Below, one piece after another: positions 30,115 to 41,180 of a stretch of DNA of 64,000 nt. How positions within the stretch are numbered: the first letter of the stretch is position 1; the number at the start of each line of letters is the position of its first letter. A model generated the notes under the pieces. That model made no database searches. It had not been told where the DNA came from and worked only from the letters and a program-made list of their open reading frames with translations. Source of the DNA: Synechococcus sp. C9 (GTDB taxonomy: Bacteria; Cyanobacteriota; Cyanobacteriia; Gloeomargaritales; Gloeomargaritaceae); assembly GCF_022984075.1 (NCBI RefSeq), contig NZ_JALAAD010000001.1, positions 2,026,455 through 2,090,454 on the forward strand, given 5' to 3'. A program made the position numbers and the translations under genes.

Positions 30115-30882
30115 ATGTGCTTGCCCCCTTGGTTGCACTGGCTCGATGAATGTCCCAGTACCAACACTTGGGCATTACAATCGCTGGACAGATTAGCCCA
30201 GGGCGATGTGGTCTTTACCCCCCGACAGACGGCAGGACGGGGACAACAGGAACGCCCTTGGTATGCGCCACCGGGAGTTTTAACCGCTTCGTTTATTTTA
30301 GAACCGCTGGCTCCCCCCGAATTGCCCTGGTTGAGTTTGGCGGCGGGGTTGGCGGTGATCCATGCGGTCGAGGATTTACTGCCCTTGCCTGCCCTGGCGT
30401 TGGGGATCAAATGGCCGAACGATGTCCTGCTCTGGGGGCGGAAGGTGGCGGGGGTGCTGTGCGAAGCCCGGTTGCCCAAAGCGGTGGTCGGGGTGGGGCT
30501 GAATCGGCAGGTGGATTGGCCAAGGGTTTTGGCAGGGGGCACGATGGATGTATCCCCGGCTCAGGTGGCGAGTCTTTCGGAGGTGAGCGATACGCCGCCG
30601 GAGGTACTGCCTTTGTTAACACAATTGCGAGATTACTTTTTGCAGGCTCATGGGGTAATTCGGCAGAAGGGCTTGACCGGGCTTTTGCCCCAACTGCGCC
30701 AGCGGGATGTGCTGTATAGTTGTCCGCTGGTTGTCCATACATCGGACGGGATGCTTAGCGGGGTGGGGGCGGGGATTGACGCTTGGGGGCGGTTACAGGT
30801 GCAACGGGCCGATGGAACAGTGCAAGCCTTGTCCGCCGGTCGGGTGGTGCGCTGGGAGCCTTCACGCCGCTGGGATGAGTAA
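30115..30882 (+). CDS. birA: biotin--protein ligase
   Basis: 255 residues from the ATG at 30115 (MCLPPWLHWL). No N-terminal HTH, so it is a ligase only. The biotinyl-AMP site has ECPSTNTWA, TAGRGQQERPW (the GRGxxxR loop) and GIKWPNDVL with GRKVAGVLCE. It attaches biotin to carboxylases such as acetyl-CoA carboxylase. Its last 21 bp overlap the 3' end of the convergent biotin-dependent guanidine/urea carboxylase gene, one of its likely substrates. Confidence 0.93.
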   Translation: MCLPPWLHWLDECPSTNTWALQSLDRLAQGDVVFTPRQTAGRGQQERPWYAPPGVLTASFILEPLAPPELPWLSLAAGLAVIHAVEDLLPLPALALGIKWPNDVLLWGRKVAGVLCEARLPKAVVGVGLNRQVDWPRVLAGGTMDVSPAQVASLSEVSDTPPEVLPLLTQLRDYFLQAHGVIRQKGLTGLLPQLRQRDVLYSCPLVVHTSDGMLSGVGAGIDAWGRLQVQRADGTVQALSAGRVVRWEPSRRWDE

Positions 30883-33800
30883 AAGCACGATTTGTCCCGC
30901 TGTCACGGCTTGTCCGGGTTGACAGAGGATTTGGGCAACGGTAGCGTCTAGGGGGCTAAGCACCGCAATTTCGGTTTTCATGGCTTCGATAATCATCAAC
31001 TTTTCCCCGGCATGAACCACTGCTTGCGGGGTGACCACCACCTGCCAAACCGTGCCACTGACTTCCGCCCGCACCGCCACCTGCCCTGGGGGGATGGGAA
31101 TTTCCGTCGCCTCTAGCGGAGCAGTTGCCGCTTCCGTGTCCGGTCGGTCAAATTCCCCAGCCGCTACCCACCGTTCCCGTTCGGCATCAAAGGCGTTTTG
31201 TTGTTGAGTTTTGAAAGCCTGAATGGATGCGGCATGGTCTTGCAGAAATTGCTGATAGTCCCCCAGATGAAACGTTTCCTCGTGAATGTCTAATTTCACC
31301 CGCCCATAGGTCACATCCTCCCGGTAGCGCTGGAGTTCCGCCCCGGTGACTGGGAAAAAGCGAATTTGGTCAAAAAACCGCAACAGCCAGGGCTGGGTAA
31401 AATCGGCAGTCCGGTAATAGCGATTCCACACGGGCACCGTGCGCCCCACCAACTGATACCCCCCCGGTCCTTCCATGCCGTAAATGCACAGATACGCCCC
31501 GCCAATTCCCACCGCATTCTCCGGCGTCCAGGTGCGGGCAGGGTTGTATTTGGTTGTGACCAGCCGATGCCGGGGGTCAAGCGGGGTTGCCACCGGTGCC
31601 CCCAGATACACATCCCCCAACCCCAGCACCAAATAACTCGCTCCAAACACAATGTCATACACCTGCTGGACATCCGCCAAGCCATTCACCCGCCGGATAA
31701 ATTCCAAATTGCTCGGACACCAAGGCGCATCCGGTCGCACCGACTGCATATATTTAGTGATGGCAAGCTGGATCGATTCATCATTCCAGGACAGGGGCAA
31801 ATGCACGATGCGGGTGGGCACGGTCATCTGCGCCACGTCAGGTAATTCGGCTTCCGCCGTTGCTAATATATCCAAAAGTTCAGAACGGGGCAGTCGCTGG
31901 TTATCGTAATGCACTTGTAATGAGCGAATACCGGGGGTCAGGTCAATAATGCCGGGAATCTTTTGCGCTTGCAACCAGGTCATCAGCCCATGCACCCGGA
32001 ACCGCAGGGTCAAATCCAAAGTTAACGGCCCGTATTCGATCAATATATATTTGTCCCCCGCCTGCCGATAGGTCACCCCCACCGGATGGGGAGCCGTCAT
32101 CTGCTTGAGTACTGGTTCCGTAGCCACTGGTACGGCGGGGATAGGCGGTAGGGGCGCCAGGCGAGCCAGTTCTTCTTCCTGTCGCTGTTCCCAGGCGCAG
32201 GCGGTCGGTTCATCCATCGGGAAAAATCGCACCCGGTCCCCCGGTCTCAACTGCCCGATTTTCCACAGTTCCGCCTGCACAATCGTCGCCGGACAGACAA
32301 ACCCCCCCAAACTCGGCCCGTCGTACCCCAAAATGATCGGCATATCCCCGGTAAAGTCAATCGTGCCGATGGCATAGGCGTTGTCGTGGATGTTGGAAGG
32401 GTGCAGACCCGCTTCCCCCCCATCCGGTCTGGCCCAGGTGGGCGCCGGGCCAATCAGCCTTATCCCCGTGCGGGCCGAATTGTGATGCACCACCCAGGCG
32501 TGGCTCAACAGCAGTTCCATATCCTGCGGGGTAAAAAAATCCGGTGCCCCGTGGGGACCCACCATCACAGCGATTTCCCAGGCATCCGTGTATTGGGGAA
32601 TTAAGTCCGGGGGCAAAACTGCCGGTTGGTCCTGCCCATCCCAGGGTGTCAGCGGCAACCCATCCCCCGCCCGCAGGACTCTGCCGCCATGTCCGCCAAA
32701 TTGCCCCAGGGTAAAGGTCGCCCGACTGCCCAAATACTCCGGCACCGACACCCCCCCCTGCACCGTAATATAGGTGCGATACCCCGCCCCCTGCACCGCC
32801 TTCAGGGTCAACACACTCCCGGCTTGCACCGTCACCGTCTGCCAGTAGGGAACCGGTTGCCCGTCCAGAGTCGCAGGCATCATCGCCCCAGTCAGGCAAA
32901 TGCGGGTCGGTGCATTAAAGCGCAGGGTCGGCCCCGCCATCGTACATTCCAGCCCAGCCGCCCCCAGGGGATTGCCCAGCAGACGATTGCCCCAGCGAAA
33001 GGCTAGGTGATCCATCGGACCCGACGGCGGCACCCCCACATCCCAATACCCCAACCGCCCCGGATAGTCCTGCACGGTAGTAAAGGTACCGGGAGCCAAT
33101 ACGTCAATCGTCTGGGGCTGATAGGTGAATTGGGAGAGCCACTGGGTACTCACTTCGCCCCGCTGAAACTCCGGGGTCGCCACCACCTGTTGCAGGTATT
33201 CCAGATTGGTCGCAATCCCTGCCAGAGTGGTGTGCGCCAACACCGTTTGCAACTTTTGGAGCGCCGCCGCCCGGTTTTCCCCATGCACCATCGCTTTCGC
33301 CAACAGGGGGTCGTAGAAGGGGGTTACCTCGGTCCCACTGCGAATCCAGGCATCCCACCGGGCACCCTCCGCCAATGCCACATGGGTCAGCACCCCGGCG
33401 CTGGGCTGGTGGTTTTTGTGGGGGTCTTCGGCATAAATCCGGACTTGGATGGCATGACCCTGGGGCTGGTGATGATAACGGTCGAAAAAATCCCGTTCCC
33501 CGGCAGCCAAACGCACCATCCATTCCACTAAGTCAATACCGCAGACCAACTCGGTGACCCCGTGTTCCACCTGCAACCGGGTATTGACCTCCAGGAAATA
33601 AAATTCGCCCGTTGTCCCGTCCACAATAAATTCCACCGTGCCCGCCGACTGGTACTGCACCGCTTCCCCCAACCGTTGCGCCGCTTGGTAGAGTCCCTGC
33701 CGCACCGATTCTGGCAACCCTGGCGCTGGCGTTTCCTCGATCACCTTTTGATTGCGCCGCTGGCTGGAACAATCCCGCTCCCCCAGGGTGAGAACCCGCC

Positions 33801-34452
33801 CCTGCCCATCCCCAAAAATCTGCACCTCCACATGGCGAGCCACAGGAATGTATTTCTCCAGGAACACCCCACTATCCCGGAAATTAGCCTGGCTCAACCG
33901 TTGCACCTGCTCATAGGCTACCGCCAATTCCGCCGCATCTTCACACCGACGCATCCCAATTCCCCCGCCCCCCGCCGTACTTTTGAGCATCACCGGATAG
34001 CCGATCTGCGCTGCTGCCGCCTGCGCCTCGGTGAGATTATTTAATAAAGAAGTACCAGGAACCAGGGGAATCCCCTGACGGGCCGCCAGATCACGGGCAA
34101 GGTGCTTGCGACCAAACTGGCGAATGTGTTCCGGCTTGGGTCCAATAAACACCAGCCCCCGTTGGGCACAGGCACTAGCAAAATCCCCATTTTCGCTGAG
34201 AAACCCGTACCCCGGATGGATCGCCGCCGCCCCCACCTGCACCGCCAGGTCCAACACCCGCTCCCCTTGCAGATAACTCTCGCTGGCCAGGGTTCCCCCC
34301 AACGCTAACGCTTCCGTCGCCTCCTCTACATGGGGACTGTGCCGATCCGGTTCCGAATAAACCGCCACACTGGCAATCCCCAGCCGGTTTAAGGTGCGGA
34401 TAATCCGCAGGGCAATTTCCCCCCGATTGGCGACCAGGACTTTGGCGAACAT
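30862..34452 (-). CDS. guanidine carboxylase of the urea carboxylase family (biotin-dependent)
   Basis: 1196 residues from ATG 34452, which shares one base with the upstream stop. In order: biotin carboxylase (~1-450; KVLVANRGEIALRIIRT, ATP loop KSTAGGGGIGMR, LEVNTRLQVEHGVTE); carboxyltransferase of KipA/AHS2 type (~470-770) then KipI/AHS1 type (~800-1010); biotinyl domain with EAMKTE, biotin Lys ~1159. It carboxylates guanidine or urea with ATP and bicarbonate. The guanidine-I riboswitch and two CgdAB-like partners point to guanidine; urea as an additional substrate cannot be excluded. Confidence 0.88.
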   Translation of the reverse strand: MFAKVLVANRGEIALRIIRTLNRLGIASVAVYSEPDRHSPHVEEATEALALGGTLASESYLQGERVLDLAVQVGAAAIHPGYGFLSENGDFASACAQRGLVFIGPKPEHIRQFGRKHLARDLAARQGIPLVPGTSLLNNLTEAQAAAAQIGYPVMLKSTAGGGGIGMRRCEDAAELAVAYEQVQRLSQANFRDSGVFLEKYIPVARHVEVQIFGDGQGRVLTLGERDCSSQRRNQKVIEETPAPGLPESVRQGLYQAAQRLGEAVQYQSAGTVEFIVDGTTGEFYFLEVNTRLQVEHGVTELVCGIDLVEWMVRLAAGERDFFDRYHHQPQGHAIQVRIYAEDPHKNHQPSAGVLTHVALAEGARWDAWIRSGTEVTPFYDPLLAKAMVHGENRAAALQKLQTVLAHTTLAGIATNLEYLQQVVATPEFQRGEVSTQWLSQFTYQPQTIDVLAPGTFTTVQDYPGRLGYWDVGVPPSGPMDHLAFRWGNRLLGNPLGAAGLECTMAGPTLRFNAPTRICLTGAMMPATLDGQPVPYWQTVTVQAGSVLTLKAVQGAGYRTYITVQGGVSVPEYLGSRATFTLGQFGGHGGRVLRAGDGLPLTPWDGQDQPAVLPPDLIPQYTDAWEIAVMVGPHGAPDFFTPQDMELLLSHAWVVHHNSARTGIRLIGPAPTWARPDGGEAGLHPSNIHDNAYAIGTIDFTGDMPIILGYDGPSLGGFVCPATIVQAELWKIGQLRPGDRVRFFPMDEPTACAWEQRQEEELARLAPLPPIPAVPVATEPVLKQMTAPHPVGVTYRQAGDKYILIEYGPLTLDLTLRFRVHGLMTWLQAQKIPGIIDLTPGIRSLQVHYDNQRLPRSELLDILATAEAELPDVAQMTVPTRIVHLPLSWNDESIQLAITKYMQSVRPDAPWCPSNLEFIRRVNGLADVQQVYDIVFGASYLVLGLGDVYLGAPVATPLDPRHRLVTTKYNPARTWTPENAVGIGGAYLCIYGMEGPGGYQLVGRTVPVWNRYYRTADFTQPWLLRFFDQIRFFPVTGAELQRYREDVTYGRVKLDIHEETFHLGDYQQFLQDHAASIQAFKTQQQNAFDAERERWVAAGEFDRPDTEAATAPLEATEIPIPPGQVAVRAEVSGTVWQVVVTPQAVVHAGEKLMIIEAMKTEIAVLSPLDATVAQILCQPGQAVTAGQIVLLLIPAA

Positions 34453-35102
34453 CAGCCCGCCGCATCCCAAATTAGCAACCGCACCGGCGTCGGGTGGTAG
34501 GCATTACAGGGATTGTTAATTTGGGGACAGTTGGAAATCAACACCAGCACATCCATTTCCGCCCGCAAATCCACATATTTCCCCGCCTCGGAAATCCCGT
34601 CCACAATTTCCAGCGTGCCATCCGCCGCCACCGGCACATTCATAAAGAAATTGATATTGCTCACCAAATCCCGCTTGTTCATCCCGTACTGGCTCAATTC
34701 CAGCAGGTAATTTTCCACACAGGCGTGCAGATGCTTCTTGTGCAGACCATAGCGCACCGAATTGCTCTCCATACTGCACGCACCCCCCAGGGTATCGTGA
34801 CGACCACAGGTATCGTTCAGCACCGTCATCAGTACATTGCCCGCATTGGACAGCAATTGCGTCCCCGCCGTGATAAAGATATTCCCCTGGCGCACCACTG
34901 TATCCGGCGCACTGTAGCGCTCCGAGGTATCGGCGGCATTGTAAATCAGGGTGTCCACCGCCTGATTCCCCTCCACATCCACAATCCGTAAAATTTGCCC
35001 CTTGTGCACCACCTTCGACCAGGGCTGGCGGGCAGGCAATTCGTAGTCGTAAATCGCCTGGGTGGGGTCAAGGGTGGGGGTCGCCATCGTCATCGTCGCC
35101 AT
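34452..35102 (-). CDS. urea carboxylase-associated protein, probable carboxyguanidine deiminase subunit
   Basis: 216 residues from ATG 35102, placed about 10 nt after AGGAGG; ATGs at 35111 and inside the Met-rich start are alternatives. Core segments are LRIVDVEGNQAVDTLIYNA, DTLGGACSMESN and YVDLRAEMDVLVLISNCPQINNPCN. It is homologous to the neighbouring gene. The pair corresponds to the 'urea_degr' proteins, shown in other bacteria to form carboxyguanidine deiminase (CgdA/CgdB), releasing ammonia to give allophanate. Which subunit is A or B I cannot say. Confidence 0.85.
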   Translation of the reverse strand: MATMTMATPTLDPTQAIYDYELPARQPWSKVVHKGQILRIVDVEGNQAVDTLIYNAADTSERYSAPDTVVRQGNIFITAGTQLLSNAGNVLMTVLNDTCGRHDTLGGACSMESNSVRYGLHKKHLHACVENYLLELSQYGMNKRDLVSNINFFMNVPVAADGTLEIVDGISEAGKYVDLRAEMDVLVLISNCPQINNPCNAYHPTPVRLLIWDAAG

Positions 35103-35161
35103 CGTTTTCATGCCTCCTGAAAAAAAGTTACTGCAAACATTAGTACAAAAAATTACATTCC

Positions 35162-35941
35162 CTAGAGGGCGTAATGGGGAGCCAGCGGTCGTTGCCGCCA
35201 CCAGGTATCCGTGTTGATAAATCCCCGCACCACCTCCTCGTTCGCCGTGCGACAGGGGTCATCAGCCGCCGGTTCCGGGGAACGCCACACCGTCAGTTGG
35301 ATGGGTTGCGGTCGGTACACCGTATCCGGGTGCAGGACATGGGGACAGTTGGCAATCACCACCAGCACATTCATTTCCGCCCGCAAATCCACATAAGCAC
35401 CGGGTTTAGCCGCCCCGGCATCGTACTGCAAATCCCCCGTCGGTGTCACCGTCACCCGGCTAAAGAAATTCACATTCGGCATCAAATCCCGGCGGGACAT
35501 CCCCCACTTGCCCAACGCCCGCAGAAACTGATCCTGGGCACTGTGAAAATCCTGGCGACCCTGAATCTCCGTGCCCGTTCCCCCATGCCCGTACTTGGCT
35601 CGATTGGTCGCCGCCGTACTGCAACCGCAGATCAGGTCATGACCGTTGGACGTATCCGCCGTGATGGAAAACAAAATCCGCCCCATGTCCGAGTACAGCA
35701 CCATCCCCTGGCGCAAAAAGGCGTTGAACTGGATTTTGGCTGTATCCGCCACATTCAAGCGCTCCATCGGGCGGTCAGCGTTATAGCCAATCATCGCCAC
35801 TCCCTGCGACCCCCCCAAATCCGTAATCCGCAGGGTCTGCCAGCGGGGAATCACCCCATGCCAATAGCCTCCCCCCGGCACCTTCTCCGACCAAACCACC
35901 AATTCCGGGCGAATGTCCGTTTCTGCCACCGTTGCCACCAT
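35162..35941 (-). CDS. urea carboxylase-associated protein, second carboxyguanidine deiminase subunit
   Basis: 259 residues from ATG 35941 (MVATVAETDIRPEL) behind AGGAGGT; a longer frame would run through the riboswitch and is rejected. Core LRITDLGGSQGVAMIGYNAD, HDLICGCSTAATN and YVDLRAEMNVLVVIANCPHVLHP parallels the next gene. First gene of the riboswitch-controlled operon; 59 bp precede the second subunit. Conserved Cys and His in the core (CGCST, NCPH) may bind metal, by family analogy. Confidence 0.86.
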   Translation of the reverse strand: MVATVAETDIRPELVVWSEKVPGGGYWHGVIPRWQTLRITDLGGSQGVAMIGYNADRPMERLNVADTAKIQFNAFLRQGMVLYSDMGRILFSITADTSNGHDLICGCSTAATNRAKYGHGGTGTEIQGRQDFHSAQDQFLRALGKWGMSRRDLMPNVNFFSRVTVTPTGDLQYDAGAAKPGAYVDLRAEMNVLVVIANCPHVLHPDTVYRPQPIQLTVWRSPEPAADDPCRTANEEVVRGFINTDTWWRQRPLAPHYAL

Positions 35942-36025: not shown

Positions 36026-36136
36026 ACCTCCCGGGCTTTTATCCCGCCGTGTAACCGCACCCACCAAGGCAACGGTCTGCTTCTCTCGGACCAGCCACAG
36101 TAGTCAACGCCACTGCCGGAACCCTAGAAGCTCTCC
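36026..36136 (-). promoter_or_regulatory. guanidine-I (ykkC) riboswitch
   Basis: Read on the minus strand the leader has all conserved blocks in order: CTTCTAGGGTTCCGGC near 36131-36115, GGCTGGTCCGAGAGAAGC near 36096-36079, and ACACGG with GGGATAAAAGCCCGGGAGGT near 36053-36026. These are diagnostic for the guanidine-I aptamer. It lies 85 bp upstream of the first deiminase gene, so free guanidine should switch the operon on. Confidence 0.95.
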
Positions 36137-36269
36137 TAATTGGCTTATGACCCTATCCTAATCCTCCCCCTGTAAAAAACAGTTGCTTTTGCTACTTTTT
36201 ACAAAAATTTACAATCTTTTTCTTGGGGATTGTTCCTATGTATGCCCACAGATTTCCGCCTCAAAAAGT

Positions 36270-36283
36270 GTATCTCAAGATAC
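36270..36283. promoter_or_regulatory. NtcA-type nitrogen-control palindrome
   Basis: GTATCTCAAGATAC is a perfect palindrome matching GTA-N8-TAC. It lies in the divergent region between the riboswitch operon and the ABC importer, about 144 bp upstream of the importer start. A clear -10 at the expected distance is not obvious. Confidence 0.55.
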
Positions 36284-36426: not shown

Positions 36427-37497
36427 ATGAAATGGAAATCTCACGCTTGGAATGGGTTGTTGTTTGTGTTGGCAATGATGCTAGCCGTCAGTTGTGTTCC
36501 TCCGAAGGTGCAAAGTGAAAGTCCGGTGGTGCGCCTGGGTTTTAGTGCCTGGCCGGGCTGGTTTCCCTGGCAAGTCGCCCAGGAAAAAGCGATTTTTACC
36601 ACCAAAAATGTGCAGGTAGATTTGAAGTGGTTTGATAGCTATTTGGACTCAATTAATGCCCTCACAGCCCAACAATTGGAAGCGAATTCCCAGACCCTTA
36701 ATGACACGATTAGCGCCGTAGCCGGTGGTGCGGATCAGGTGATTGTTTTGGTGAATGATAATTCGACGGGAAATGACAAAATCATCGTCCGGGAAGGCAT
36801 TAATACCATTGCGGATTTGAAGGGGAAAAAAGTAGCCGCCGAAGAGGGAACAGTGGATCATTTTCTCCTGCTTTTGGGGATGGAAAAAGCGGGATTAAAA
36901 CCCTCGGATATTACGTTTGTGCCCTTGGAAACCGGGAAAGCCGCCACCGCCTTTGTCGCCGGACAGGTGGATGCGGTGGGGGTGTTTGCGCCGTTTACCA
37001 CCCAAGCCTTGAAACGTCCGGGCAGTAAGGAATTATTTAGTTCCAAGGATTTTCCGGGGGCGATTTCTGACCATTTGGTGTTTACCCGGAGCTTTGTGAA
37101 TGAGCATCCCGAACAGGTGCAGGCGCTGGTGGATGCCTGGTTTGCGACGACGAAATTTTTGGAAACTAATCCCGAAGAAGCCATTGCCATTATGGCGAAA
37201 AAAGCCAATGTTTCGGTGGAGGAATACAAACAATATGCGGCGGGTACCCGGATTTTTACGGTGCAGGAAAATATCGCCGCTTTTCAACCTGGTAATGATA
37301 TGTCCTCGTTGCCTTTTGCGGCTCAGAAAATCAGTGCCTTTTTAACCCAAGTCGGTTTAGCGAAAACCCAACCGGATTTGAGCAAATTGTTTGACGACCG
37401 GTTTGTGAAAGCCTATGCCGCCCGTGCCCAAGCCCAAATGTCCCCCGTTCCAGTGACTTCCCATGACCGATCCCCAACGTTCCCAGCCCCTGCGTGA
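36427..37497 (+). CDS. ABC transporter substrate-binding lipoprotein (NMT1/SsuA-TauA type)
   Basis: 356 residues. A lipoprotein signal (LAMMLAVSC, lipobox Cys at residue 23) is followed by a periplasmic binding fold beginning RLGFSAWPGWFPWQVAQEK. This family binds nitrate, sulfonates, taurine, pyrimidine precursors and similar small ions. Context with guanidine catabolism suggests guanidine or a guanidino compound as ligand. It overlaps the permease start by 35 bp. The C-terminal tail after ~345 is Pro/Ser-rich. Confidence 0.88.
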   Translation: MKWKSHAWNGLLFVLAMMLAVSCVPPKVQSESPVVRLGFSAWPGWFPWQVAQEKAIFTTKNVQVDLKWFDSYLDSINALTAQQLEANSQTLNDTISAVAGGADQVIVLVNDNSTGNDKIIVREGINTIADLKGKKVAAEEGTVDHFLLLLGMEKAGLKPSDITFVPLETGKAATAFVAGQVDAVGVFAPFTTQALKRPGSKELFSSKDFPGAISDHLVFTRSFVNEHPEQVQALVDAWFATTKFLETNPEEAIAIMAKKANVSVEEYKQYAAGTRIFTVQENIAAFQPGNDMSSLPFAAQKISAFLTQVGLAKTQPDLSKLFDDRFVKAYAARAQAQMSPVPVTSHDRSPTFPAPA

Positions 37498-38311
37498 CCA
37501 GTTACAGCCCCGGCAGTTGCGCCCGTCGGTGTTTTGGCGGATTGCTGAGGACATTCCCCGCCGGTTGTACTGGCGGTTGGTCACCCTCTCCATCTTGTTT
37601 CCCCTGGTGGCGTGGGGCTTGGTGACCTGGATCAAAGCCGTTGACCCGACGTTTTTGCCCTCGCCGGGACAGGTGGTGCAGGCGGCGGTTCGCCTGGGGC
37701 GTTCGGGGGAGTTGTGGCGGGATACCTGGGCAAGTGTGGGGCGGGTGGGGGTGGGGTTTGCGCTCTCGGCGTTGGTGGCGATTCCGGTGGGACTGCTGAT
37801 GGGAAGTTTTGCCAGTATCCGGGCGTTGTTGGAACCCCTGTTTGGGTTGATGCGCTATATGCCGGCGCCAGCGTTTATTCCCCTGTTGATTTTGTATCAG
37901 GGGGTGGGGGAAGAACCAAAGGTGACGCTGATTTTTATTGGTACGTTTTTTTTCAATGCGTTGATGGTGATGGATACGGTGAAATTTGTGCCGAAGGAGT
38001 TAATTGAAACCACGTTTATGCTGGGAGGAAATCGGATGGCGACGGTGATGCAGGTGATTTTTCCCCATGTCCTGCCGGGGGTTTTGGATGCCTGTCGGAT
38101 CAATTTGGCGGCGGCTTGGCAGTTGGTGATTGTGGCGGAATTGGTAGCGGCGACGGAGGGGTTGGGGCGACGGATTAGTTTGGCGGGCAGATTTTTGCGG
38201 ACGGATGAAATTTTTGTAGGGATTATCGTGATTGGATTGATCGGGTTGGGGTTGGATTTGTTGTTTCAATATCTGGTGCGGTTGACCAGTCCTTGGGCGG
38301 ATGCGAAATGA
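37463..38311 (+). CDS. ABC transporter permease (SsuC/NrtB type)
   Basis: 282 residues with about six membrane helices. A coupling-helix segment of BPD_transp_1 type is present: ETTFMLGGNRMATVMQVIFPHVLPGVLDA (EAA-like G at the loop). It overlaps the binding-protein gene and is followed 32 bp later by the ATPase. Probably a homodimeric channel for the imported nitrogen compound. Confidence 0.9.
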   Translation: MTDPQRSQPLRDQLQPRQLRPSVFWRIAEDIPRRLYWRLVTLSILFPLVAWGLVTWIKAVDPTFLPSPGQVVQAAVRLGRSGELWRDTWASVGRVGVGFALSALVAIPVGLLMGSFASIRALLEPLFGLMRYMPAPAFIPLLILYQGVGEEPKVTLIFIGTFFFNALMVMDTVKFVPKELIETTFMLGGNRMATVMQVIFPHVLPGVLDACRINLAAAWQLVIVAELVAATEGLGRRISLAGRFLRTDEIFVGIIVIGLIGLGLDLLFQYLVRLTSPWADAK

Positions 38312-38343: not shown

Positions 38344-39138
38344 ATGTTTTTACAGGTGCGACAGTTGACGAAACATTTCCCGACTAAGCGGGGGACGTTG
38401 GTGGCGTTGGAGGATATTAATTTCTCGATGACCGCCGGGGAGTTTGTCTGTGCGGTGGGGGCTTCCGGTTCTGGTAAATCTACTCTCCTGCGGCAGATTG
38501 CGGGGTTGGATCAGCCGACCCGTGGGGGGGTGTGGATTGATGGACAGAGGGTGACGGGACCGGGGGCGGACCGGGGGATCGTCTTTCAGCATTACTCCCT
38601 GTACCCCTGGATGACGGTGCAGGAGAATGTGGAATTTGGGTTGAAATTGCACGGGATTCCCCCCCGGGTGCGGCGGGAACAGGCGCAGTACTACCTGGAG
38701 GTGGTGGGATTGACGGCGTTTGCCCAGGCGTTGCCCCGGCAGTTGTCTGGGGGGATGAAACAGCGGGTGGCGATTGCCCGGGCGTTGGCGGCGGAACCCC
38801 GGATTTTGTTGCTGGATGAACCGTTTGGGGCGTTGGATTTGCACACCCGGGAAACCATGCACGAATTTATGGTGCAACTGTGGCAGCGCACCCGTCTCAC
38901 GGTGTTTATGATCACCCACGATGTGGAGGAGGCGGTGTTTTTGGCGAATCGGATTTTGGCGTTGAGTGCTCACCCGGGGCGCATCTGTCGGGAGATGCAG
39001 GTGGAATTGCCGGATCGGAGTTTGGGGGTGATGGCAATCAAACGCCATCCGGCTTTTCATGACTACCGGGATGAATTGGTGCGGCTGTTGCGGCAACAGG
39101 GACGGGCGGATGCGCCTACCCCAGCGTTGGTGGCTTAG
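38344..39138 (+). CDS. ABC transporter ATPase (SsuB/NrtD/TauB type)
   Basis: 264 residues from ATG 38344, chosen because GGGAGG precedes it; an ATG at 38308 overlapping the permease stop is possible. Walker A GASGSGKSTLLRQIAG, signature LSGGMKQRVAIARAL, Walker B ILLLDEPFGALD, switch His in MITHDVEEA. Energises the importer. Confidence 0.93.
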   Translation: MFLQVRQLTKHFPTKRGTLVALEDINFSMTAGEFVCAVGASGSGKSTLLRQIAGLDQPTRGGVWIDGQRVTGPGADRGIVFQHYSLYPWMTVQENVEFGLKLHGIPPRVRREQAQYYLEVVGLTAFAQALPRQLSGGMKQRVAIARALAAEPRILLLDEPFGALDLHTRETMHEFMVQLWQRTRLTVFMITHDVEEAVFLANRILALSAHPGRICREMQVELPDRSLGVMAIKRHPAFHDYRDELVRLLRQQGRADAPTPALVA

Positions 39139-39357: not shown

Positions 39358-40737
39358 ATGATCTCAAGCCTCGATTTGCCATCCTTGCGTCAGGCGTACA
39401 GCACGGGGCAGGTGACCCCGGTTGACGTTGTCGAAACGGTGTACGAACGGATTGAACGGTATGCTGACCCGGCGGTGTGGATTTATTTAGCACCTAAGGA
39501 GGAGAGTTTACGGCGGGCGCAGGCGTTGACCAAAACCGAACCGAGCCAGTTGCCCCTGTACGGTATTCCCTTTGCCATCAAGGACAATATCGATTGGGCG
39601 GGGGTGCCCACGACGGCGGGGTGTCCCAGTTTTGCCTATGTGCCCCAACAGTCGGCGACGGTGGTGAACCGGTTAATCTTCGCCGGGGCAATCCCCATCG
39701 GGAAAACCAATTTGGATCAGTTTGCGACGGGGTTGGTGGGCACCCGTTCTCCCTACGGCATTTGCCGCAATCCCTTTCACCCGGAGTACATTCCGGGGGG
39801 GTCGAGTTCCGGGTCGGCGGTGGCGGTGGCGGCGGGGCTGGTGAGTTTTAGTTTGGGGACGGATACGGCGGGTTCCGGGCGGGTGCCTGCGGCGTTTAAC
39901 CAGATTGTGGGCTTGAAACCCACCCGGGGTTATCTCAGTACCCAGGGGGTGGTGCCCGCCGTGCGGAGTCTGGATTGTGTGTCCATCTTTGCCCTCACCT
40001 GCCGGGATGTCCAGGCGATTCTCCGGGTAGCCGCTGGGTTTGACCCGCTTGACCCCTTTTCCCGGTCGCCCCAGTGGACGGAGCAACCGCCGGGTCTGCG
40101 GGTGGGGGTGCCGCCGAGGGAACAGTTGGAATTTTTTGGCAATGAGGCGGCGGCAAAGAATTACCAGCAGGCGTTGACCCGGTTGGCGGCGCTGGGGTGT
40201 ACTTTAGTTGAAATCAATCTAACGCCGTTTTTGACAGCGGGTGACTTGCTGTACGAGGGGGCGTGGTTAGCGGAGCGGACGGCGGCGGTGGGGGAATTTC
40301 TCCGCCAGACCCAAGCGGGGGTTGACCCGGTGGTGCGGCAAATTATCCTGGCGGGTGAGGCGATTTCCGGGGTGCGGGTGTTCCAGGATATGTACCGTTT
40401 GGCGGCGCTGAAACGGAAAACGGAAATGCAATGGGCGCAGATGGATATGCTGGTTCTGCCCACCACCGGGACGATTTACCGGGTAACAGAAGTGCTGGCT
40501 GAACCCATCGCCCTGAATCGCCATTTGGGACGGTACACCAACTTTGTCAATCTCCTCGACCTGTGTGCCTTGGCAGTACCGAGCGGCAGGCAACCCAACG
40601 GTCTCCCGACCGGCATCACCCTCATGGCTCCGGCGGGGCGGGATCAATGGCTGTGCTACTGGGGGCAACGGTATCAAGCGGCGTTGGGGGGAATGTTGGG
40701 AGCCACCGGGATTGCTTATGGGGAGGTGTCCCCATGA
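39358..40737 (+). CDS. atzF: allophanate hydrolase, amidase domain (AtzF-like)
   Basis: 459 residues, an amidase-signature enzyme. The Lys-cisSer-Ser triad sits in AIKDNID (Lys), GGSSSGSAVAVAAG and LGTDTAGSGRVPA (nucleophile Ser). It hydrolyses allophanate, the deaminated product of carboxyguanidine, toward ammonia and CO2. Fused AtzF/DUR-type enzymes are about 600 residues; here the C-terminal domain is a separate gene overlapping by ATGA. No strong ribosome site is seen before the ATG. The gene lies divergently from the carboxylase but completes the same pathway. Confidence 0.92.
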   Translation: MISSLDLPSLRQAYSTGQVTPVDVVETVYERIERYADPAVWIYLAPKEESLRRAQALTKTEPSQLPLYGIPFAIKDNIDWAGVPTTAGCPSFAYVPQQSATVVNRLIFAGAIPIGKTNLDQFATGLVGTRSPYGICRNPFHPEYIPGGSSSGSAVAVAAGLVSFSLGTDTAGSGRVPAAFNQIVGLKPTRGYLSTQGVVPAVRSLDCVSIFALTCRDVQAILRVAAGFDPLDPFSRSPQWTEQPPGLRVGVPPREQLEFFGNEAAAKNYQQALTRLAALGCTLVEINLTPFLTAGDLLYEGAWLAERTAAVGEFLRQTQAGVDPVVRQIILAGEAISGVRVFQDMYRLAALKRKTEMQWAQMDMLVLPTTGTIYRVTEVLAEPIALNRHLGRYTNFVNLLDLCALAVPSGRQPNGLPTGITLMAPAGRDQWLCYWGQRYQAALGGMLGATGIAYGEVSP

Positions 40738-41180
40738 CCGAACCCTACCGCTTGGCGGTCGTCGGTGCCCATTTGACCGGACAACCCCTGAACTATCAAC
40801 TCCAGGAATTACAGGCTCGGTGCCTGCGTACCTGTACCACCGCACCCCTCTATCGTCTGTACGCCCTTTTTGGGGGGGAAATACCCAAACCCGGTCTGGT
40901 GCGCCAAAGGGCAGGGCAACCGGGCTATGCCATTGAGGTGGAAGTCTGGGCTTTGTCGGCTGGTGGTTTTGGGCACTTTGTGGCGCAAATTCCCTCGCCC
41001 CTGGGGATTGGCACGCTCATTTTAGAGGACGGGGAAACGGTCAAGGGCTTTGTGTGTGAGTCGTTTGCGGTGGCGGATGCCCTGGATATTTCCCACTACG
41101 GCGGTTGGCGGGCGTATCTGGCGGCGCAGGCGAGAAAAAATTCCTCAGAACCCCTAGACAAATCCAGAGATTCAGTCTAA
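40734..41180 (+). CDS. allophanate hydrolase C-terminal domain as separate protein
   Basis: 148 residues, matching the AH_C part of allophanate hydrolase (gamma-glutamylcyclotransferase-like fold): MTEPYRLAVVGAHLTGQPLNYQLQ, VEVWALSAGGFGHFVAQIPSPLGIGTL and VKGFVCESFAVADALDISHYGGWRAY. The start overlaps the amidase stop (ATGA). In fused enzymes this part handles the N-carboxycarbamate intermediate; probably it acts with the amidase as a two-subunit enzyme. Confidence 0.88.
   Translation: MTEPYRLAVVGAHLTGQPLNYQLQELQARCLRTCTTAPLYRLYALFGGEIPKPGLVRQRAGQPGYAIEVEVWALSAGGFGHFVAQIPSPLGIGTLILEDGETVKGFVCESFAVADALDISHYGGWRAYLAAQARKNSSEPLDKSRDSV

Follow-up and report, generated by a model that had tools for sequence, protein, structure and literature searches.

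Guanidine-I riboswitches (RF00442, ykkC) are usually transcriptional ON switches according to a 2025 review, and an antitermination logic has been described for the class. One route of guanidine use is the carboxylase pathway from guanidine to ammonia, as outlined in a review (PMC12186494). In enterobacteria and halophiles (Raoultella, Vreelandella), guanidine carboxylase operons are described in which the carboxylase, the deiminase pair, an ABC importer and allophanate hydrolase are found at one locus. In Synechocystis, a guanidine-I riboswitch and an ABC importer belong to the gdmH operon (sll1077-1082), and this guanidinase operon is repressed by ammonium, according to PMC10094980. For NtcA-activated promoters, the abstract of PMC3898017 places the box GTAN8TAC about 41.5 nt before the transcription start.

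Here we describe a locus within 64,000 nucleotides of the Synechococcus sp. C9 genome; this whole stretch is referred to as the window. In our interpretation, which we hold with good confidence, the guanidine-I riboswitch at this locus would act as the genetic ON switch of a guanidine-carboxylase operon in a Gloeomargarita-type cyanobacterium. Gloeomargarita is an early-branching cyanobacterial lineage, and the locus is a clear case of a known riboswitch class in such a lineage that uses the carboxylase route. The element resembles RF00442 in its sequence blocks, its fold, the guanidine genes behind it and the use of its 3' strand by a downstream hairpin; it departs from the class in details only, namely a weak U-tract and placement ahead of the catabolic half alone. 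The gene content is that described for the Raoultella and Vreelandella operons, but here the genes for the importer and allophanate hydrolase are transcribed divergently with no riboswitch ahead of them, and allophanate hydrolase is split into two ORFs. Riboswitch and importer are shared with the Synechocystis gdmH operon, whose arrangement is the commonest in our survey, whereas in the present genome no arginase-family gene could be detected and the carboxylase route is taken. As in NtcA-activated promoters, a box, the spacing and a -10-like element lie upstream of the aptamer and an exact box faces the importer; unlike in those promoters, the aptamer-side box, a candidate site, has one mismatch. 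To the first-pass annotation of this DNA, which had marked the aptamer, the present analysis adds a hairpin as the likely platform, a carboxylase that bears the guanidine-specific residues, a divergent importer lacking a riboswitch and a proposed coupling to NtcA.

Genes of the locus

The catabolic operon follows the aptamer on the minus strand. Its first two genes encode two DUF1989 (PF09347) proteins, one of the UAAP1 type (35162-35941; TIGR03425, 294.9 bits, cut-off 205.95) and one of the UAAP2 type (34452-35111; TIGR03424, 348.6 bits, cut-off 284.7), which are the predicted subunits of carboxyguanidine deiminase. UAAP1 is 100% identical to its counterpart in isolate VI4D9 and 80% identical to that of Gloeomargarita sp. 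SKYG116, and the closest named genomes are Gloeomargaritales. The third gene (30862-34452) matches a family annotated as urea carboxylase (TIGR02712, 1831.2 bits, cut-off 1303.85). According to the comammox paper (PMC11410670), an Asp at position 1330 of the Kluyveromyces lactis enzyme distinguishes guanidine carboxylase from urea carboxylase, and Asp 1584 is required. In an alignment to urea amidolyase 5i8i, with positions counted by eye, the window protein has D opposite K. lactis N1330 and D at 1584. Both marker aspartates point to a guanidine carboxylase rather than a urea carboxylase.

Neither urease alpha nor an arginase-family member (guanidinase) was detectable in the genome itself. 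Taken together, the genes of the locus appear to encode the carboxylase pathway, which would convert guanidine to ammonia without free urea. Absence of urease was considered as the explanation of the carboxylase route and rejected in general, because urease alpha is present in 9 of the 11 other genomes searched (three Gloeomargarita and six from other genera); it is also absent from G239 and G389. The idea that the carboxylase always stands behind the switch at carboxylase loci was likewise rejected, as the G239 carboxylase lies elsewhere (C1:1684685-1688248). In that genome (L131; L210:2683-7020) it is about 330 kb from the riboswitch-deiminase operon and beside a convergent, overlapping biotin ligase gene, and the same carboxylase/biotin-ligase overlap occurs in the window at 30862-30882.

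On the plus strand, a divergent operon encodes an ABC transporter substrate-binding protein (36427-37497; TIGR01728, 243.4 bits), a permease (37463-38311) and an ATPase (38344-39138). The amidase part of allophanate hydrolase (39358-40737; TIGR02713, 589 bits; PF01425) and its C-terminal part, a separate ORF (40734-41180; PF21986, 164.1 bits) joined to it by an ATGA overlap, follow. In L002, L003 and L131, too, the two halves do not share a frame. In six other genomes (G127, G060, G183, G276, G097 and G334), substrate-binding proteins encoded immediately after guanidine-I riboswitches share 67-73% identity with the window protein, which makes the window transporter a probable guanidine importer. 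Among the other carboxylase genomes, the importer stands behind its own riboswitch in G127, G276, G060 and G183, and one riboswitch is common to the importer and the carboxylase operon in G097 and G334; in Gloeomargarita the riboswitch governs the catabolic side only and the importer has none. At the locus of an SKYG116-like Gloeomargarita (L003:5665-6744, plus strand), a Rieske-type oxygenase (PF00355, PF00848) is encoded between the importer and the riboswitch. Its best NCBIfam match is GbcA, far under the cut-off, and upstream of it the TGTAAATTTTTGTAAA motif occurs a second time, together with an exact NtcA box. Our guess is that this oxygenase could free guanidine from a guanidino compound.

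The aptamer and the reading frame across it

A whole-window Rfam cmscan returned two matches, one of which is Guanidine-I on the minus strand at 36138-36026 (80.1 bits, gathering score 63, E 1.2e-12), covering model positions 1-107 of 107. This match is far above chance. The first-pass annotation had recognized a guanidine-I aptamer with all its conserved blocks on this strand and had proposed a covariance-model scan; the scan places the element above the cut-off, and the three blocks are present in order, CTAGGGTTCCG at 36127-36117, CTGGTCCGAGAGA at 36094-36082 and GGATAAAAGCCCGGGAG at 36044-36028. The interval given at first, 36026-36136, is the right site but 2 nt short at one end. The element is the only copy in the entire 2.96-Mb genome. 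Between 35900 and 36600, no second guanidine riboswitch was found on the transporter side at E up to 5, and the sole other match in that interval was a chance match to an lncRNA. In six Gloeomargarita aptamers, which are close relatives, 88.3% of cells are paired, compared with 24-47% when the structure is slid; helix 3 is paired in 100% of cells and shows double-sided change at two pairs. Covariation among these close relatives is weak, and 101 of the 500 shuffles score just as high. We regard the element as a genuine, well-supported guanidine-I riboswitch of an ordinary kind, found where one would be expected.

After a TGA at 36106-36104, the downstream gene's reading frame has no stop from 36103 onwards into the coding sequence; it overlaps 78 of the aptamer's 113 bases and leaves out the 5' third. 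It had been noted earlier that a longer frame runs through the aptamer and could mislead annotation into a false N-terminal extension. The frame does enter the aptamer, but it opens inside (at 36103) and does not run through all of it; in substance the warning was right. The first ATG, GTG or TTG of the open frame is TTG 36067, within the aptamer, and a mechanical gene caller starting there could add 42 residues to UAAP1. The true UAAP1 start is likely ATG 35941, which is preceded by the Shine-Dalgarno sequence AAGGAGG (35956-35950). From stop to stop the frame has 313 codons in the window, whereas just 266 are open at the same gene in the related genome G239, so the N-terminal extension is not conserved. 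The site is thus a warning to gene callers that riboswitch sequence can become an N-terminal extension.

Two other explanations of these bases can be weighed here. The ykkC subtypes include RNAs with ppGpp and PRPP as ligands, and much of the fold is common to them, so that the RNA might be a relative for such another ligand. The full-length match to the Guanidine-I model and the control of guanidine-carboxylase pathway genes both speak against this, and we regard it as hardly credible. Equally remote is a coding role, in which the protein truly begins at TTG 36067 or upstream: the frame is indeed open from 36103 into the gene, but the same bases carry a full covariance-model match, ATG 35941 has a good Shine-Dalgarno sequence, and the open frame is shorter in G239.

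Proposed expression platform

The sequence AAGCCCGGGAG (36038-36028, minus strand) is the 3' strand of aptamer helix P3 with the conserved GGGAG, and may also serve as the 5' arm of an alternative (terminator) hairpin. The candidate 3' arm, CTCCGGGGCTT (35987-35977, minus strand), is complementary to it at 10 of the 11 positions and separated from it by an inner hairpin; it is followed by the weak U-tract CGTCGTTGAGTAAC. A downstream arm complementary to the aptamer 3' strand, as expected of an ON switch, is therefore present. The 83-nt hairpin segment has a predicted energy of -43.3 kcal/mol (z -6.5; as good in 0 of 200 shuffles). The 189-nt leader folds at -77.7 with the hairpin versus -57.7 with the 3' arm kept unpaired, a difference of 20 kcal/mol. 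The U-tract holds 4 T in 14, compared with a mean of 6.9 over 59 non-picocyanobacterial sites, and is poorer than that sought for a transcriptional ON switch; the stem is broken by a G-G mismatch, and a simple terminator scan found none at the alternative hairpin. Because the U-tract is weak and the scan negative, termination is something that we only infer. Six Gloeomargarita leaders contain two double-change pairs in the alternative hairpin, with weak covariation (score equalled by 33 of 500 shuffles).

A survey of 72 sites, comprising the window, 67 other class-level matches (one of which, G294, scores under Rfam's cut-off) and four named loci, showed how widely this arrangement is kept. 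At 57 of the 59 non-picocyanobacterial sites, at least 9 of the 11 positions of the aptamer 3' strand have complementary partners in a downstream arm; the same holds at 1 of the 13 sites of family f19, which are presumed picocyanobacteria on the basis of genome size and gene order. When at most 5% of shuffles were allowed to be as good, the counts are 47/59 and 0/13. At the 13 f19 sites (e.g., L141, L142 and L144), the aptamer lies 15-36 nt ahead of the first long ORF; 12 of them have no terminator arm, and an exact NtcA box is absent upstream of all 13. These aptamers probably use another expression platform, and other platforms would therefore exist in the phylum.

NtcA boxes and possible nitrogen control

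TAN3T is the -10 element of NtcA-activated promoters. Upstream of the aptamer, an NtcA-like box, GTAGCAAAAGCAAC (36182-36195, minus strand), reads GTAN8AAC. It differs from GTAN8TAC at one of the six consensus positions, and because of this mismatch it is called NtcA-like only. The -10-like TAGGAT (36155-36160, minus strand) stands 21 nt after it, within the 20-24 nt sought, with a predicted start near 36147. All seven of the Gloeomargarita loci compared have the relaxed box with this spacing, two of them (L003 and L207) with the same sequence; the half-sites GTA/AC and the TAN3T spacing are kept throughout, and the inner eight bases vary. Facing the transporter operon is an exact palindromic NtcA box, GTATCTCAAGATAC (36270-36283, plus strand), and an exact GTAN8TAC also occurs on this side in 6 of 6 other Gloeomargarita loci examined, of which L003 and L211 seem to come from one genome. 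Where a TAN3T element was looked for on the transporter side, GATGCT is situated 23 nt after the exact box. The genome also has a gene for NtcA itself (TIGR03697, 370.9 bits, cut-off 244.95). In the whole 64-kb window, GTAN8TAC occurs 11 times, against 4.6 expected from shuffles.

Among 75 cyanobacterial aptamers (the 72 survey sites and L205-L207), 41 have an exact GTAN8TAC within 200 nt upstream, compared with 1.83 expected from shuffles, and three of these boxes (window, G239 and L002) are the importer-side box. All 41 boxed aptamers are non-picocyanobacterial (41/62), whereas a box occurs in 1 of 127 control regions, drawn from the remaining upstream regions at these loci. The full layout of box and -10 element is present at 23 of the 75 aptamers versus 0.16 expected. 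Because the sites are related and their counts not independent, counts by lineage are fairer: with the unassigned L004 and L005 set aside, 25 of the 35 genera and 19 of the 21 families have a box. In f31, a more distant group that has further loci, 2 of the 23 loci examined have one. In the literature searched, no description of a link between NtcA and guanidine riboswitches was found; Itzenhauser et al. (PNAS 2025; PMC12704784) may contain one.

The enrichment of NtcA boxes suggests a nitrogen-AND-guanidine gate. In this model, which we favor slightly, non-picocyanobacterial guanidine-I riboswitches would provide the second of a gate's two inputs: the NtcA promoter would transcribe when nitrogen is short and the riboswitch would let transcription pass when guanidine is present, the importer and allophanate hydrolase of Gloeomargarita responding to the nitrogen input alone. 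If this is true, a Gloeomargarita cell would import first and turn catabolism on only once guanidine arrives, since nitrogen would be the sole input controlling the importer and allophanate hydrolase. At the window locus, an NtcA-type promoter probably drives transcription from a start near 36147. Without guanidine, the aptamer end AAGCCCGGGAG would pair with CTCCGGGGCTT, 40 nt downstream, and the resulting long hairpin would stop or stall transcription. With guanidine, the aptamer would keep AAGCCCGGGAG in P3, allowing transcription into both deiminase subunits and the carboxylase. The divergent importer and allophanate hydrolase, with no riboswitch of their own, are probably governed by nitrogen status alone through the exact NtcA box. 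If the NtcA coupling holds, it shows guanidine use placed under general nitrogen control, and would support a role of guanidine here as a nitrogen source rather than mainly a toxin.

Both inputs of this proposed gate have a competing explanation. At the RNA level, the aptamer could be genuine and the long hairpin could act on RNA decay, pausing or translation, with no intrinsic termination here. The weak U-tract, the terminator scan without a match and the missing downstream arm at 12 of 13 picocyanobacterial sites favor such a role. On the other side, the Shine-Dalgarno sequence AAGGAGG lies outside the hairpin, most other families retain the complementary arm and a T-richer tail, and the 2025 review has the class as usually transcriptional; we consider this alternative improbable, and an ON switch by antitermination the most likely mechanism. 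At the promoter level, the match to GTAN8AAC could be fortuitous and guanidine alone could decide expression. The mismatch in the window box is in keeping with this, as are the 21 of 62 non-picocyanobacterial sites without an exact box within 200 nt. It is opposed by the half-sites and TAN3T spacing kept in all seven Gloeomargarita loci around a varying 8-nt spacer, by the strong enrichment of exact boxes at other aptamers, and by the ammonium repression of the Synechocystis gdmH operon mentioned above. We grant promoter control independent of NtcA a real, if minor, chance.

Distribution and other observations

Guanidine-I elements above the cut-off are present in 118 of 386 sampled genomes of the phylum, and UAAP1, a marker of the carboxylase route, above its cut-off in just 8 of the 386. 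Within the genus, 6 of 7 genomes searched have the riboswitch; the seventh is 83% complete. Counting the first ORF of at least 200 aa behind the riboswitch at 68 class-level sites, one protein cluster accounts for 52 (agmatinase family, from one member scanned), a substrate-binding protein for 8 and UAAP1 for 6. The remaining two, named from their sequences only, are ABC ATPase-like (G027b) and solute symporter-like (G169). In the latter genome (L149), the riboswitch is directly ahead of the 500-aa symporter-like protein, which is a possible non-ABC guanidine importer.

Elsewhere in the window, the Rfam scan located the antisense RNA IsrR at 552-729 on the plus strand (RF01419, 98.2 bits, cut-off 52). 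It is situated within a 342-aa minus-strand ORF (94-1122), which resembles isiA.
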